Origin: Clostridiales bacterium
Lineage (GTDB): Bacteria > Bacillota > Clostridia > Oscillospirales > CAG-272
Assembly (NCBI GenBank): GCA_022800625.1
Contig: JAAWQR010000006.1
Location: 17,200-81,199, forward strand
Direction of reading: 5' to 3'
DNA: 64,000 bases
Shown: positions 26,134 through 64,000 of the stretch, piece by piece
How positions within the stretch are numbered: the stretch's first letter is position 1
How the letters are laid out: every line of letters begins with the position of its first letter
The notes under the pieces: generated by a model
Told to the model about the DNA's origin: nothing
The model's input: the letters and a program-made list of their open reading frames with translations, nothing else
Database searches by the model: none
Position numbers and translations under genes: made by a program

Positions 26134-26974
26134 ATGTCACAAAAAATTCAAATAATAATAAGCTGTGATCGAAGAGTGTTGGAACTTGAACAGGTCAAAA
26201 ATTGGCTGATCGAAAACGGATACAGTTTATCAAATAATCATTATCATGTGGATAAAACAGCTGATATAATAATTTTAATCACATGCGGAGTAACACAGAT
26301 GCATGAGGATTTTACGTTTAAGATGCTTGAAAAAATAAAAGCAGGGATGAAACCCGGCGCACAAATAATATTAGGCTGATGTGTTCCCGAAATCAATCCC
26401 GAACGTGTAGCTAAAGAGTTCGGCGGACCGATTTTCAGTCCGAAGGCATATTATAAGCTGGATCGAATATTTAATATGCCGCGTAAATTAGATACATTTG
26501 ACCGACCGAACATTTATATGATGAAAGGACTGTACCGAAGCGACGTCGGTTGAAGAGCAATTTACATTAGAACTTACAGACATCAATCCTGTATTTCTCA
26601 AGGTGATTTATGAACCTGTAAAGACGTTATGCCTGCAGAAGAGACTTTCTAATCTGTATATTCCCATTCAGTCGGGAAATGACCGGGTTTTAGGTTTGAT
26701 GAACAGACGTTACAATATAAATGAAACTAAAGAAATGCTATGCGAACTTAAAGCTTTGGCGCCGAAGGATTTTAAGATAGGCACATCTGTAATAGTAGGA
26801 TTTCCGTCTGAAACATGCGACGAATTGCAGGATACGATCGACTTTTGCAACAGTATGAACTTCGATTGGATATACTGTCACGGTTTCTCCGCAAGGCCCG
26901 GTACTTCGGCGGCTAAACTGCCGGAACAGCTATCTGAGGAAGAGGTAATAGACAGAGTAAGTTTGTTTAGATAA
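26134..26974 (+). pseudogene. Degraded MiaB/RimO-type radical SAM methylthiotransferase
   Basis: N-terminal UPF0004-like part with in-frame TGA just before a conserved Cys, second TGA, frameshift, absence of the radical-SAM CxxxCxxC segment, then recognisable TDINPVFL...LYIPIQSGNDRVLGLMNRRY...VIVGFPSET in another frame, truncated C-terminus. Confidence 0.8.
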
Positions 26975-27090: not shown

Positions 27091-29292
27091 TTACCTCAGT
27101 CTTGAAATAAATTCATCCTGAACTTCGCGGGAAAGAGTTACAAATCTGGCGCTGACGCCCCACATGCGGATTATCAGATCGCGATGAGCATCCGGATTTT
27201 TCTGAGCGTCAAGCAGATCCTCTGCGCTTACACTGTTCGGCTGGTGCTGCATACCGCCTATATCAAAATAGGATCTTGTTAAGCTTGCAAGGACGCCGTC
27301 TGTTCCCTCAAAAACAGAACTTGAGTACTCAAGCATAAGGCAGTTGTTCCATTCCGACATCTCGGGTGAGAGCTTCGCGGCAGAACGCATTGCAGAAATC
27401 GGACCGTTTTTCATCGTACCTGCGGCAGGACTGAGGGATACGGGGATAGGAGTACCTGAAAATCTTCCGTCGGGCGTTGCAGGAGTATTCCAGCCTGCGA
27501 AAACAGGATGCGGCTGATGGAAGCCACTGAGGTGGCGCACACCGCTGAAAGTAAAACGCTTTGAGATTTCTTTAGCTGCATGTTCCATGATCCTGATTCC
27601 GGGCAAATCTGCGCAGTCATCGTCATTCCCCCATTTCGGTGCACTGAGCAAAGAGTGTCGCATGACTTCAAATCCTTCAAAATTTTTATCAAGAGCTTCT
27701 CTAATCTCAGACAGAGAATATCTTTTTTCGTCAAACACTCGCTTTCTGAGTGCGGACAGAGAATTTACGGCAACCGTAAGTCCTGATATCATAAGTCCTT
27801 TTTGTTTTAGCCTATAGTCGATCAGATCAATGTCCCCGCCGATGTCGAGTGCACCTTCGATCATAGCTGATGTAAAAGACAAAGGCGACATTAGACTTGC
27901 AGCGGCAGCTCTGATATGCGGTTCGGTTATATCGGCCGAATAAAATTCTTCCGTGTCACCATCGGCAAATCGCAGAACCACCTTTTCAAATTTGTTATAT
28001 GAATTGATCTCAAGGTCAACTGCGGCTGAGATATCTCTTTCATATAGGGCAATAAATTCCTCAAAAGTGCAGTTGTCTTTGGCTTTTTCGAGGGTTTTCA
28101 GCAGAATTTTTGTAAGATTTACGTCGCCGCTTCTGAATATCTGACATCGTCCGGGTATCATAATATCCTGACACAAATCAAACGCGTAGTCGCGCGCATC
28201 TTCGGGAGGAATTCCTGCGTTTGTGAGATTTTCGATGAATTTATCGTCGTTGTAGTATGCAAGAGTGTTAAGTCCGCTTTCCGATAGCTTTGAGAGACGG
28301 TCTAAAAATTCAGGAGGATTCTTGCTGTTTATTCTGCATGCGACTTCGGGTTCTTCAAGGCGAACCTTGTCAAGTGAATCGATAAAGATGTACGTCAGCT
28401 CATTTACGGCATTGTCTCCGTTCGGCAGTACTCCGCCCAGCGTAATATTGTGCTGAGAATTATACTGCCCCATTTGATAGTGATACAGATCGCATGAATC
28501 TGAAAATTTTATCAGCAGACAAGCTGTTATCTCCTCTATTTCATTATGCTTGTTTTTATCATAGAACGGGTACAGAAAGCTATCGACTCTGCCGTAAGAC
28601 ATTCCTCTGAAATTGTCGCACAGAACGCCAATGTGGGCAAGCCAAAAGAGCTGCGCGGCTTCATAATAATCACGCGGAGGTTCAGTTGAAATATGACGGC
28701 AAATTTCAGAAATTCTTTTAAGCTCTGCTTTTCTGCACTCGTCGTTTTCATATTCAGCCATCTCGGAGGCTTTTTCGGAATACCGCATAATGAGCTTTGA
28801 AAAAGCTCTGTAAACCGCCGCCATAGCTCTTGCATATTCGGCTCTAAAAACACTTTTCGCTTTTCTTTCCGCTGTTTCGGCTCGCTCAATGATTACTTTA
28901 ATGCCGTTCTTCAGAAGTATGGAATAATCCGCTACATTATGGAGCTGACTATTGTTCGGCAGATCAAATCCCCGAAACTTTTTTCTGTCGTTGTCGTTTA
29001 TGTATTGCGGCATAGTATTAAGGTCAAGAAGTGATTTTCCGTCAGGCGTAACTGAAGGATCGCATTCAGGATTATCCACACGCGAGAGCAGAGTGCGAGA
29101 GCCGACTATCAGCTCATGTTCACCGATATAAATCGGCATATTTTCAAATATATAAGAAATTGCGGCGGCTCGTCTTTCCGGGAGAGATAGAGGAAGCTCG
29201 GCAAAAGATATCGAACTGTCAATTTCTTCACGCGCGGATGAGTGCTTTGCTTTAAGCATATTTTCGCGAAGTATTTTTATTCTGTCACTCAT
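27091..29292 (-). CDS. Glycyl radical enzyme, pyruvate formate-lyase family, unassigned substrate
   Basis: C-terminal glycyl-radical segment RMWGVSARFVTLSREVQDEFISR, candidate active-site Cys in FDLCQDIMIPGR, GMQHQPNSVSAEDL; next to a PflA-type activase. Confidence 0.88.
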   Translation of the reverse strand: MSDRIKILRENMLKAKHSSAREEIDSSISFAELPLSLPERRAAAISYIFENMPIYIGEHELIVGSRTLLSRVDNPECDPSVTPDGKSLLDLNTMPQYINDNDRKKFRGFDLPNNSQLHNVADYSILLKNGIKVIIERAETAERKAKSVFRAEYARAMAAVYRAFSKLIMRYSEKASEMAEYENDECRKAELKRISEICRHISTEPPRDYYEAAQLFWLAHIGVLCDNFRGMSYGRVDSFLYPFYDKNKHNEIEEITACLLIKFSDSCDLYHYQMGQYNSQHNITLGGVLPNGDNAVNELTYIFIDSLDKVRLEEPEVACRINSKNPPEFLDRLSKLSESGLNTLAYYNDDKFIENLTNAGIPPEDARDYAFDLCQDIMIPGRCQIFRSGDVNLTKILLKTLEKAKDNCTFEEFIALYERDISAAVDLEINSYNKFEKVVLRFADGDTEEFYSADITEPHIRAAAASLMSPLSFTSAMIEGALDIGGDIDLIDYRLKQKGLMISGLTVAVNSLSALRKRVFDEKRYSLSEIREALDKNFEGFEVMRHSLLSAPKWGNDDDCADLPGIRIMEHAAKEISKRFTFSGVRHLSGFHQPHPVFAGWNTPATPDGRFSGTPIPVSLSPAAGTMKNGPISAMRSAAKLSPEMSEWNNCLMLEYSSSVFEGTDGVLASLTRSYFDIGGMQHQPNSVSAEDLLDAQKNPDAHRDLIIRMWGVSARFVTLSREVQDEFISRLR

Positions 29293-29339
29293 AATAATCT
29301 CCATTTTGCCGCTAAACGGCAGTTCAAGTCTAAATAGAT

Positions 29340-30236
29340 TTATTTTTGCGAATCCGGCATACCGCATTCACGCATAATATTTTTTAAATGCTCTATGTCA
29401 TCACAGCTTACATGAAATCCGTCATTTTTCGGAAGGTTCATTCCGAACATTCCGTATTTCTCGCGTCCTAATGAATGATACGGAATCATCGTTACTGATT
29501 CGGGAGGAGTTTTCAGTGATGACAAAAAAGCGGATATGTTTCTGATCTCCGACTCATCAGCATTAAAGCTTCCGATGAGGGGAATCCTGACATGCAGCTT
29601 GATTCCGATATCTGACAAATACCGACAGTTCTCAAGGATAGATTTGTTAGACGTTCCCGTGCCTTTTATGTGAATCTCTTCAGTAACGGCTTTAATATCG
29701 TATAAAAAGAAATCAGTATAAGGTAGAACCCTGTCAATATCCTCGCGCGGCACGTTTCCGCATGTATCGACAGCGGTTGTAATCTCGAGCTTTTTACATT
29801 TTTTCATACATTCACAAATGAAATCAGCTTGAAGAAGCGGTTCGCCGCCCGAAAATGTAACTCCTCCGTTTTTTCCGTAAAACGGCATATCACGAATGAG
29901 CTTTGTAAGAATTTCATCTTCCGTCATGAGCGCTCCGCAGATCGACAGAGCATCCGTCGGACATACATTTGTACATTTTCCGCAGTTTGAGCATACGGTT
30001 CTGTTTACCGCGTGATAAGCTTCCGATATGCTGTGACAGTCACATATATTCTGACACTCTCCGCACATAATACAAAGAGAACTGTCATATCTCAGCTTCG
30101 GTACAGCGCTCATTCCTTCGGGATTATGACACCACAGACATTTAAGAGAACATCCTCCCATAAAAACGGTTGTCCTGATTCCGGGACCGTCGTGAACTGA
30201 GAAAGATTGTACGTCAAAAACAAAGCCTTTAGCCAT
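29340..30236 (-). CDS. Glycyl-radical enzyme activating protein (radical SAM, with ferredoxin-like cluster insert)
   Basis: FSVHDGPGIRTTVFMGGCSLKCLWCHNPE radical SAM motif plus CIMCGECQNIC and CSNCGKCTNVCP. Confidence 0.94.
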   Translation of the reverse strand: MAKGFVFDVQSFSVHDGPGIRTTVFMGGCSLKCLWCHNPEGMSAVPKLRYDSSLCIMCGECQNICDCHSISEAYHAVNRTVCSNCGKCTNVCPTDALSICGALMTEDEILTKLIRDMPFYGKNGGVTFSGGEPLLQADFICECMKKCKKLEITTAVDTCGNVPREDIDRVLPYTDFFLYDIKAVTEEIHIKGTGTSNKSILENCRYLSDIGIKLHVRIPLIGSFNADESEIRNISAFLSSLKTPPESVTMIPYHSLGREKYGMFGMNLPKNDGFHVSCDDIEHLKNIMRECGMPDSQK

Positions 30237-56844: not shown

Positions 56845-57003
56845 AATAAACATGTCGAGTGGCAGGGGATTTTCGGAATCTCCTGTCTTTCTTTATCTTT
56901 GTCCGATAATAAAAATACTGTTGAAACGATGCAAATAATAATGTATAATATAATGTGGTATTTTGCCACATGTTATTTAACGCACAGATAGGAACTAATA
57001 ATA

Positions 57004-60000
57004 ATGTTTAATATATTGAGTGATATATGGGCGCATCCGGGTGCAGTTCATGCACCTGTTGTGCCTTTTGATATTACAGATGTGAGTGTAGATGAGATAG
57101 AAGTGCATATAAAGGAGCTGAGAAGCCTCGGCTGCGATACATTGCTTATTACGGTTGATGAAGACTGCAAGGTAAGCGAAGCTGTGCTTGACGCTCTGTT
57201 TGCCGCTGCCTCATACAGACATATGCTTGTATTTATACATGAATCGATAGTTACAGCGTATACAGGAATGACTGATACCATGCTTCGCGCATGCAATCCC
57301 ATGTCATGTTCGCATATTCTGAAAATATCGGATTCTCCTGTAGATAGTTACGGCGTCGGAGAAGAACTTGTATCAGAGCTTAATGTAAGATACAAAGACG
57401 GTGTGCTCGAAAATGCCGGGTCGATATCTCCTTCCGACAGGGCGGCAGCCGCTGAGAACAGAAAAATGTATATAAGTCTGAGCGCTGAAACTGATGGAAT
57501 CGATCTTCTCGAGTGCAACACTGCGGAAATTCTTGTCGGTGCATTTGAGATATTTTTTGAGAGGTTCCGCGAAGTGTCGGCAGGGTCGCTTGTAGGGTTT
57601 AAAACCGACAGGATAAATCGATATGTAAGCTCCGACTGTATTTATTGGACATATGATATGATAGAGCGCTTTCACGCTCTCGGCGGAACGGATATCATAC
57701 TTGTTTCTCTCCTTTCGGATAATCAGCCAAAGCGCCCAAGCCGCCATTATAAAGAAGGTCTTAGAATATATAAAAAGGCGCTTGCCGAACTTTTAAACGA
57801 AAGCTTTTGCAATCCTCTTTCCGAGTGGTGCGGAAAAAATTCGCTTTCTCTTACAGGTGAAGTGCCGTATGAATTTATAAGTGATATGTCATCAAGCTTT
57901 ACATTGCCGATCTTCTCAGACGAGGGATTTGACTCGGTCAAAACTGACGGTGACAGCATATGGTTCAGTATCAAATGCCTTGCCGATATGGCGCGCGGAG
58001 AAGGATTTACGGGGGCAGGATATAAATGTAATTCTATGGATGCAGATTCGCTTATGAAAGAGGTAATGCTTGCCGTGTCTGCTTCATGCGCTTTGATTTT
58101 TCTCACCGACGGATTTGTTTTACGCTCTCACCTTAATGATATCGGCGTCAGACGAGAAGATATGCGTCAGATGTTTACCTATATCAAACGTCTGTCATCT
58201 CTCGGAACATCGTGCGGCTGTATGAGCGACGTTGCTGTGCTTTGCGATAACGGTATGATACCGTATTCGGGAGCTTCAAAACTGACTGCTATGGGGATAA
58301 AATTTAATTTTGTCTCTTTAAAGCAGTTGACGGAGCGTGCTCATATTCATAACGGAAAAGTACTGATTGATAAATTTGCATACAGTACGGTATTTGTTGA
58401 TCCGCGTATCAGAATGTCGCCGCTTGATGTTAAAAAGCTCGGCGAGCTTCCCGTACAGGGAGGAAAAATGTATATCGGCAGCTCGTTTGGTGATTATGCA
58501 AAAAAGCACGTGAAAATTTCGGATTTTGACAAAGAATGCGCAGGGAAGGTCACTAAGCTTGAAACGATAAAAAGCGGATGCGAATTTCTTATATTACTTA
58601 ATCGCTTCGATAAGGCTGTAAATCTGAATTTTAAAATCGATCTCGGAAAACGTGCATATACTTTTGATCCTGAAAGCGGAAATAAAACTGAGATCGTTCC
58701 TGACGGAACTATAGATGAGCCGTATAAATCAATTCATATAGCTTCCTATGGAATTTGCGTTATCGGTATGAATTCTGATGAATTTTCGGAAAAACCGCAG
58801 AGCGTACCTCTCAAAGTATCTGAGATCATTTCTCTGAAGCAGGGTGAAAATACAGTTGATATTCCTTTTTCGGATGATATGAAATGCTATATTTCTGTTG
58901 ATTTGTTTGACGGAGCATTTTGCGATGTTATACTTAACGGAATTGAGGTCAAAAGAATTCTGTATCCGCCGTACAGTGCGGATATAACTGACATCGTGTC
59001 AGTCGGCGAAAATGTGCTGATCGTTAAATCTGAAGGAGATGTGCACGGTGCATGTCTGCATATATTCAGGAAATGCGATGCTGTGTCGGGGAAGACTGCA
59101 TATACGGTTTCAGCGGCGGCGCTCGGTTGCAGGGTGAATCAGTATGAGACAGACGCTCTCTTACAGTCCTTTTCAAAGATGGGATATGCTAAAGTATCGT
59201 TCGGCACACCTGCCGATGTTACCGTTATCAACACATGCACCGTTACAAGTGAGAGCGATAGAAAGTCTCGCCAGATGATAAGGCGTGCGGCGTCTGTCAG
59301 TCCGGGATCTGTCGTTGTGGTAACCGGTTGCTATGCTGAAACGGGCAGAGCTAAAATTGAAGAGATAGACGGCGTAAAATGTATAGTCGGCAACGCATCA
59401 AAATCGGATATACCGTCTATTGCGCACTCCATTCTCACAGAAAACAAAGCTCCCGATATCGCAGTGTCGGATGTATCGGAGGCTCAATTTGATAATATGA
59501 CACTGACAGAACCGCAGCGCGTACGCTCCTATATAAAAATTGAGGACGGATGCAACAATAAATGTTCGTATTGTATTATTCCGAAAGCGCGCGGCAGAGT
59601 TCGCTCAAAAGCCGCCGATGTTATATCGAAAGAGGGAAGAGCACTGCATGCGGCAGGCTGTCTTGAGGTTATTCTGACTGGTATAGAAGCCGCGTCATAC
59701 GGCTCAGATTTCGGGCGTGACAGATATTACGGTGAATCACTTGCTTCGGTCATTGAAGAAATGGGAGTAATCGGCTTTGAGAGAATTGGTATGGGCTCTC
59801 TCGATCCTACGGTTATGAATTCTTCATTTGTTGAAAGAATTTCAAAAGTACCGCAGGTGCTTCCTCATTTTCATCTGTCTGTGCAGAGCGGCTCATCGCC
59901 GGTACTCGCTCGGATGAGAAGAAAATATAACGCGGATATGCTCCGCGATTGTATAGATCGGATCCGTCAGTCAATTCCCAACGTAATGCTTAGTGCGGAT

Positions 60001-60429
60001 ATAATCGTTGGATTCCCCGGCGAAAGCGAGGAGGAGTTCGGGGAAACCGTAGAATTTATAGAAAAAACGAAGTTTTTGCACCTGCATATTTTTCCGTATT
60101 CACCGCGAGAGGGAACTGAAGCGGCTGAGATGGAGTGTCAGCTCTCAAACGAAGAAAAAAGCCGCAGGCTTCATATTTTAGAGAAAAAGCAGCAAGAGAT
60201 AAAACGCTCCTTGCTTGAAGAATATGTGGGGAGTCATAAAAATACTCCTGTGCGCGTGCTTGCGGAGCAGATAAAAAACGGACGAGTTATCGGTCATTCG
60301 GAACACTATGTCGAAATTGAGCTTGACTTGCCGACCTCAATTGAAAAGACTGATGAGCTTGTCGGAAAAGTTGTATGCGGTTATCTTACCGAAACTGACG
60401 GTGAGACATGTCGAGGTTATATATCTTAA
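57004..60429 (+). CDS. mtaB: Fusion: N-terminal GH106/GH2-like glycosidase-type region (~1-695) + C-terminal MtaB tRNA ms2t6A methylthiotransferase (~697-1141)
   Basis: Single uninterrupted 1141-aa ORF. C-terminus has GCRVNQYETDALL, NTCTVTSESDRKSRQ, TGCYAE, EDGCNNKCSYCIIPKARGRVRS, VQSGSSPVLARMRRKY, DIIVGFPGESEEEF, TRAM-like end. N-terminus has TIM-barrel-like and beta-sandwich (FCDVILNGIEVKRILYPPYSADITDIVSVGENVLIVK) regions. Confidence 0.85.
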   Translation: MFNILSDIWAHPGAVHAPVVPFDITDVSVDEIEVHIKELRSLGCDTLLITVDEDCKVSEAVLDALFAAASYRHMLVFIHESIVTAYTGMTDTMLRACNPMSCSHILKISDSPVDSYGVGEELVSELNVRYKDGVLENAGSISPSDRAAAAENRKMYISLSAETDGIDLLECNTAEILVGAFEIFFERFREVSAGSLVGFKTDRINRYVSSDCIYWTYDMIERFHALGGTDIILVSLLSDNQPKRPSRHYKEGLRIYKKALAELLNESFCNPLSEWCGKNSLSLTGEVPYEFISDMSSSFTLPIFSDEGFDSVKTDGDSIWFSIKCLADMARGEGFTGAGYKCNSMDADSLMKEVMLAVSASCALIFLTDGFVLRSHLNDIGVRREDMRQMFTYIKRLSSLGTSCGCMSDVAVLCDNGMIPYSGASKLTAMGIKFNFVSLKQLTERAHIHNGKVLIDKFAYSTVFVDPRIRMSPLDVKKLGELPVQGGKMYIGSSFGDYAKKHVKISDFDKECAGKVTKLETIKSGCEFLILLNRFDKAVNLNFKIDLGKRAYTFDPESGNKTEIVPDGTIDEPYKSIHIASYGICVIGMNSDEFSEKPQSVPLKVSEIISLKQGENTVDIPFSDDMKCYISVDLFDGAFCDVILNGIEVKRILYPPYSADITDIVSVGENVLIVKSEGDVHGACLHIFRKCDAVSGKTAYTVSAAALGCRVNQYETDALLQSFSKMGYAKVSFGTPADVTVINTCTVTSESDRKSRQMIRRAASVSPGSVVVVTGCYAETGRAKIEEIDGVKCIVGNASKSDIPSIAHSILTENKAPDIAVSDVSEAQFDNMTLTEPQRVRSYIKIEDGCNNKCSYCIIPKARGRVRSKAADVISKEGRALHAAGCLEVILTGIEAASYGSDFGRDRYYGESLASVIEEMGVIGFERIGMGSLDPTVMNSSFVERISKVPQVLPHFHLSVQSGSSPVLARMRRKYNADMLRDCIDRIRQSIPNVMLSADIIVGFPGESEEEFGETVEFIEKTKFLHLHIFPYSPREGTEAAEMECQLSNEEKSRRLHILEKKQQEIKRSLLEEYVGSHKNTPVRVLAEQIKNGRVIGHSEHYVEIELDLPTSIEKTDELVGKVVCGYLTETDGETCRGYIS

Positions 60430-63697: not shown

Positions 63698-64000
63698 ATG
63701 GATAATAAAAATGACAACATGACGCCGCGCGACCGCATTGATCTTGAATTTCTCAGGAATATTTTGAAAGACAACGGTATGTGTGGATGTAATGACATTG
63801 ACGTTGGCAGAGGTGAGAATCGACAGGGCTGTGGCTGTGCAAAAAAGGAAAAAGAAAGAAGCTGCGGTTGTCGCGAGAGAAATGAAGAGAGACGTGGATG
63901 TGGCTGTGCAGAGAGAGAAAGAGAGAGAAACTGCGGCTGTCGTGAAAGAAATGAAGAGAGACGTGGATGCGGCTGTGCAGAGAGAGAAAGAGAGAGAAAC
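63698..64000 (+). CDS. Cys-Gly-Cys repeat protein, highly charged (runs off window end)
   Basis: ATG at 63698 gives MDNKNDNMTPRDRIDLEFLRNILKDNGMCGCNDIDVGRGENRQGCGCAKKEKERSCGCRERNEERRGCGCAERERERNCGCRERNEERRGCGCAERERERN. Confidence 0.75.
   Translation, partial: MDNKNDNMTPRDRIDLEFLRNILKDNGMCGCNDIDVGRGENRQGCGCAKKEKERSCGCRERNEERRGCGCAERERERNCGCRERNEERRGCGCAERERERN
63863..64000 (+). repeat. 69-nt tandem repeat, two complete units in window
   Basis: Units 63863-63931 and 63932-64000 nearly identical, encoding CGCRERNEERRGCGCAERERERN; a more divergent preceding CGCAKKEKERS half-unit. Confidence 0.9.

Follow-up and report, generated by a model that had tools for sequence, protein, structure and literature searches.

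Does this genome encode a glycosidase joined to a tRNA-modifying enzyme, or have two neighbouring genes come to be read as one? The question is raised by an open reading frame (ORF) in the window, by which we mean the whole 64,000-nucleotide stretch of DNA analysed here. Read directly, the frame (57004–60429, +) runs from ATG to TAA over 1141 codons with zero in-frame stops, just as an earlier note made from the sequence had claimed, and it carries a GH106-like half followed by an MtaB half (Table 1). No glycosidase–MtaB protein was found described among the titles and abstracts listed by a literature search. The ORF may well form its own transcription unit, as is suggested by the promoter-like site upstream of it and the hairpin behind putP, both of them consensus matches. 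Right after the promoter-like −10, about 30 nt 5′ of the ORF start, lies a palindrome, ATGTGGTATTTTGCCACAT (56953–56971), which is a possible operator.

Table 1 Features of the ORF and its surroundings, in window positions
Feature	Position	Strand	Basis or remark
Terminator-like hairpin, 3′ of the upstream putP gene	56861..56887	+	Consensus match only
Promoter-like TTGAAA-17-TATAAT upstream of the ORF	56921..56949	+	11/12 matches; consensus match only
Continuous ORF, 1141 aa: GH106-like half, then MtaB	57004..60429	+	No in-frame stop
GH106-like half, residues 1–690, TIM barrel and C-terminal jelly roll	57004..59073	+	Homology, model, Foldseek
Promoter-like TTGACG-16-TATACT with TG, within the GH-like part	58907..58934	+	About 150 nt 5′ of GTG 59083
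AGGA, possible Shine–Dalgarno sequence for an internal start	59068..59071	+	Chance expectation ~0.06
Linker codons TGC GAT GCT	59074..59082	+	Between homologous GH-like C-terminus and homologous MtaB N-terminus
mtaB coding part, 448 codons if GTG 59083 is the start	59083..60426	+	TIGR01579, identity to relatives

A GH106-like half and an MtaB half

The C-terminal half was described in the earlier note as a complete MtaB, the tRNA (N6-L-threonylcarbamoyladenosine(37)-C2)-methylthiotransferase of TIGR01579, and both its motifs and its score bear this out. Residues 706–1108 reach 391.7 bits with TIGR01579, above the curated cut-off of 357.05, and the curated MiaB and RimO models stay below their own cut-offs on the same half. 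Pfam recognizes UPF0004 and Radical_SAM, and the three N-terminal cysteines and the CxxxCxxC radical-SAM motif are all present, in the segments LGCRVNQ (707), NTCTVT (743), GCYAE (775) and CNNKCSYC (850). Compared with an ordinary MtaB, the ORF as read has a 693-residue N-terminal extension in place of the protein’s own start, and its tail gives no match to Pfam TRAM, residues 1083–1140 being built as five strands in the full-length model. The half is 57–61% identical to the MtaB of three other genomes of the genus (G005, G008 and G009).

A second, unfused MtaB elsewhere in the genome was considered and rejected, as the other two full-length methylthiotransferases are MiaB (contig C20) and RimO (contig C31) by the curated models; the half in this ORF is the sole MtaB. 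With a strict threshold of E ≤ 1e-75, the protein was detected in 263 of 295 sampled family genomes, so MtaB is normally retained in this lineage. If the cell needs a functional MtaB, this ORF must therefore supply it, whether within the fusion or by internal initiation.

The window holds one more methylthiotransferase-like radical SAM gene, at 26134–26974 (+), which looks like a pseudogene. Its N-terminal piece (MSQKIQIIISCDRR...) contains an in-frame TGA after ILG; a second stop follows, as does a piece of 123 aa that matches MtaB residues 952–1071. No CxxxCxxC segment was seen in the gene. A glycyl-radical enzyme (PFL-like) and its radical SAM activase lie at 27091–30236 (−), and at 63698–64000 (+) a Cys-rich repeat ORF (CGCRERNEERRGCGCAERERERN units) begins and runs off the window end.

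The N-terminal half, residues 1–~693, matches no family above cut-off, scoring 12.6 bits with PF17132 (GH106; gathering score 29) and 17.7 bits with NF045579 (jelly roll; cut-off 50). Its AlphaFold model (pLDDT 86.5, pTM 0.88) contains the (α/β)8 barrel and β-sandwich of the GH106 fold. The top three Foldseek matches in the PDB were 5mqm (E 3.6e-26), 6q2f (E 4.0e-26) and 5mwk, all at E 2.5e-24 or lower and with TM-scores by query of 0.61–0.65, and a profile of the GH-like group matched 6q2f at E 4.8e-14. The closest folds are thus the GH106 α-L-rhamnosidases BT_0986 (5mqm) and RHA-P (6q2f), relative to which the window’s half is shorter and falls under the PF17132 threshold. Profiles and fold comparison together identify this half as GH106-like, with a C-terminal jelly roll common to GH2-type enzymes. 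The earlier note had likened residues 1–~695 to a GH106/GH2-type TIM barrel and β-sandwich and had proposed a structural and profile check, under which the assignment of a GH106-type barrel and β-sandwich holds up.

The accompanying glycosidase label calls for a qualification over the catalytic residues. In BT_0986, E593 is the general base and D458/S459 are among the metal-site residues, and the Ram106B group has Asp-Glu at the metal-site position (PMC6828813). We aligned the six GH-like members of the genus (alignment A1: the window’s, L006, L008, L037, L038 and L031). The column of the general base holds Glu in none of the six, being a gap column with Tyr, Phe or Leu beside it, and the metal-site pair reads DR, DR, SA, NR, DR and RR; one carboxylate, E80 (the E of LYDE), is kept in all six. 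Three of the longer sister-genus homologues (G285, G241 and G066) keep both the general-base-column Glu and TDEP, as in Ram106B-type GH106 (Tm_Ram106B and relatives, PMC6828813), whereas the window’s genus has neither. As all six genus proteins lack, by alignment, the general base and metal-site positions of GH106, the GH-like half is probably a glycosidase with altered or lost catalysis; catalytic death is put no higher than probable because the general-base column adjoins a gap and is placed by sequence alignment only.

Two separate genes in the relatives

Stand-alone homologues of 618–683 aa that match the GH-like half over its full length occur in 5 of the 11 other genus genomes (G003, G005, G008, G009 and G010), and the sister genus g56 has longer ones. 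When GTDB R220 species genomes were scanned with the genus alignment (A2), whose reach is close relatives only, four loci were returned; these are the loci of G008, G003, G009 and G010 again, in Clostridia metagenome-assembled genomes from the rectum of roe deer, goat and sheep and from horse faeces. An order-wide sample of 345 genomes added one weak match to the GH-like half and no more. These proteins of gut Clostridia seem to form a small, genus-restricted clade with the GH106 fold and with the rhamnosidase active site apparently lost.

Beyond the window’s own genome (G000), no GH–MtaB fusion was found in the 12 genomes of the genus, in the samples of 295 family genomes (among the matches listed) and 345 order genomes, or at the four GTDB R220 loci; nor does any other N-terminal partner of MtaB appear among the matches listed for the 295 family genomes. 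The GH-like gene and mtaB lie on different contigs in G005, G008 and G009, and in G066, G165, G207, G285 and others of the sister genus. A search for the same domain order in related genomes had been proposed in the earlier note, with consistently separate proteins in close relatives named as the observation that would count against a conserved fusion; two separate proteins, on different contigs, were found every time. The Rosetta-stone pattern, the same fused order in several lineages, is likewise not seen, the fusion occurring in G000 only among the genomes searched. A purposeful carbohydrate/tRNA-modification fusion has no comparative support, and because all relatives searched keep the GH-like gene and mtaB apart, a young accidental fusion is most likely.

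We rejected a conserved operon of the two genes, none being found in relatives, and no gene order around either gene is common to relatives. In G008 a DUF6873 gene adjoins the GH-like gene, and in G003 the same place holds a look-alike (L006 3887–4606, L008 293–1030). The homologue in the window’s genome is on another contig (C19), and a shared neighbourhood through this gene was rejected on that ground. A plasmid search with the junction gave no match.

Among the MtaB matches listed for the family sample, four other frames exceed 700 codons. In G049 (L082) and G178 (L083), mtaB is joined through its C-terminus to the following gene, whose N-terminus is weakly FGAR-AT-linker-like. These two resemble the window’s case in that mtaB is joined to a neighbouring cistron in single genomes, but they differ in the partner protein and in the end of mtaB that is joined, and were rejected as N-terminal MtaB fusions. 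In G175 (L084), mtaB shares its frame with the gene that follows, a single TGA standing between them, so the frame, given as 1011 codons, was rejected as a fusion. Also rejected, as an N-terminal fusion, was the 706-codon frame of G114, in which the upstream part is read-through and has no recognised homology. The partner proteins of all four are only weakly alike. Given the fusions in G049 and G178 and the single in-frame TGA in G175, the window’s is not the only case of junction loss around mtaB, which in this family has thus become joined to a neighbour more than once.

The junction and its likely origin

The window’s GH-like half matches its relatives up to ...HIFRK, and the relatives’ proteins end, before their stop codons, in ...LYRKEG (G003), ...ILSKEL (G008), ...RISE (G009) and ...IFRIV (G005). 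The MtaB of relatives starts about a dozen residues before LGCRVNQYE, with the N-terminus MKDEKKTAALSTLGC in G005 and (TTG)NTSKTASILTLGC in G009, the nearest MtaB, with which the window’s (GTG)SGKTAYTVSAAALGC aligns. Between FRK and GTG 59083 stand the three linker codons and nothing more, and the first of them, TGC, is one base away from TGA. By this alignment, the join position is where a lost stop would be expected, and not where random domain joining would fall. The earlier note had left the choice between a true fusion and read-through of two cistrons; the second is favoured over the first, as the genes are separate in relatives and the join lies exactly at the natural termini.

The account that we regard as probable is that a GH106-like gene stood in tandem with mtaB and that the intervening stop was lost in one lineage, with MtaB probably still made from GTG 59083. 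The GH106-like gene, of restricted distribution, would have come to lie back to back with mtaB, almost without spacer, in the window’s lineage; this intermediate is one that we infer, because none of the relatives searched has the two genes adjacent but unfused. The GH-like stop would then have been lost, for which a single substitution at 59074–59076, from TGA to TGC, is the simplest route, and ribosomes from ATG 57004 would run through to give a 1141-residue protein of two domains and a short linker, as the ORF has no further in-frame stop before the end of mtaB. Because the frame is continuous as sequenced, a 125-kDa product would arise beside or instead of a separate MtaB. Overlaps between tandem genes most often originate in a mutated stop codon of the upstream gene (PMC10666635).

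The old start GTG 59083 probably still initiates MtaB, so that the genome’s only copy would also be made alone. As the earlier note had observed, there is no in-frame ATG near the junction (none between codons 626 and 726), and an AGGA (59068–59071) precedes GTG 59083; the spacing measures 11 nt. Such a Shine–Dalgarno spacing is longer than usual, and a Shine–Dalgarno-like motif with an in-frame start arises by chance in ~6% of 14-codon stretches in the window’s genes. That note had taken GTG 59083 to be the sole internal start available; in-frame GTGs also stand at 58996, 59014, 59041 and 59134, but 59083 is the only one to fit the N-terminus of the relatives’ MtaB. A GTG start is in keeping with G008 and G009, in which mtaB appears to start at TTG, and in G001, G004 and G006 the mtaB start is a TGATGA stop/start overlap. 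The internal promoter-like site counts for little, because 16 sites of its type were observed against 10.4 in shuffles. The two halves would act independently: MtaB in methylthiolating tRNA at t6A37, the GH-like half as a cytoplasmic carbohydrate-related protein in which the GH106 catalytic residues appear to be missing.

A rather unlikely alternative is that a base-calling, consensus or assembly error hides the stop or joins two loci, the organism itself having two ordinary genes. The assembly is a draft in 55 contigs, a single base suffices to turn TGA into TGC, the fused order occurs nowhere else among the genomes searched and the neighbourhood of neither gene is common to relatives; however, there is no long homopolymer at the junction, and the GC content of both halves is within the range of the window’s genes.

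It seems to us improbable that the ORF encodes a selected bifunctional protein, in which the GH106-like domain and MtaB cooperate within a single chain, the former serving, for example, as a module for ligand sensing or targeting by which tRNA methylthiolation is tuned. The continuous frame with its two intact domains would suit such a protein, and the lost GH catalytic residues could suit a non-catalytic binding role, yet the fusion is present in one genome only, its homologues are unfused, no conserved neighbourhood links the GH-like and MtaB families and no pathway is common to the two halves. Furthermore, the full-length model consists of two folded parts with a linker (residues 690–698) at pLDDT <50 and a pTM of 0.55; the GH-like and MtaB parts are therefore predicted to have no defined mutual arrangement. 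We give very little credence to the more specific version in which a genus-specific clade of GH106-fold pseudoglycosidases had one member kept as an MtaB fusion because a ligand- or RNA-binding domain modulates tRNA methylthiolation.

If the stop between two tandem genes was indeed lost, as we think probable, the locus illustrates how the change of one base can join adjacent bacterial genes that are unrelated, and thereby mislead methods that read functional links from gene fusions. Of more lasting interest than the fusion itself is the clade of GH106-fold proteins with an apparently lost active site, the function of which is testable.
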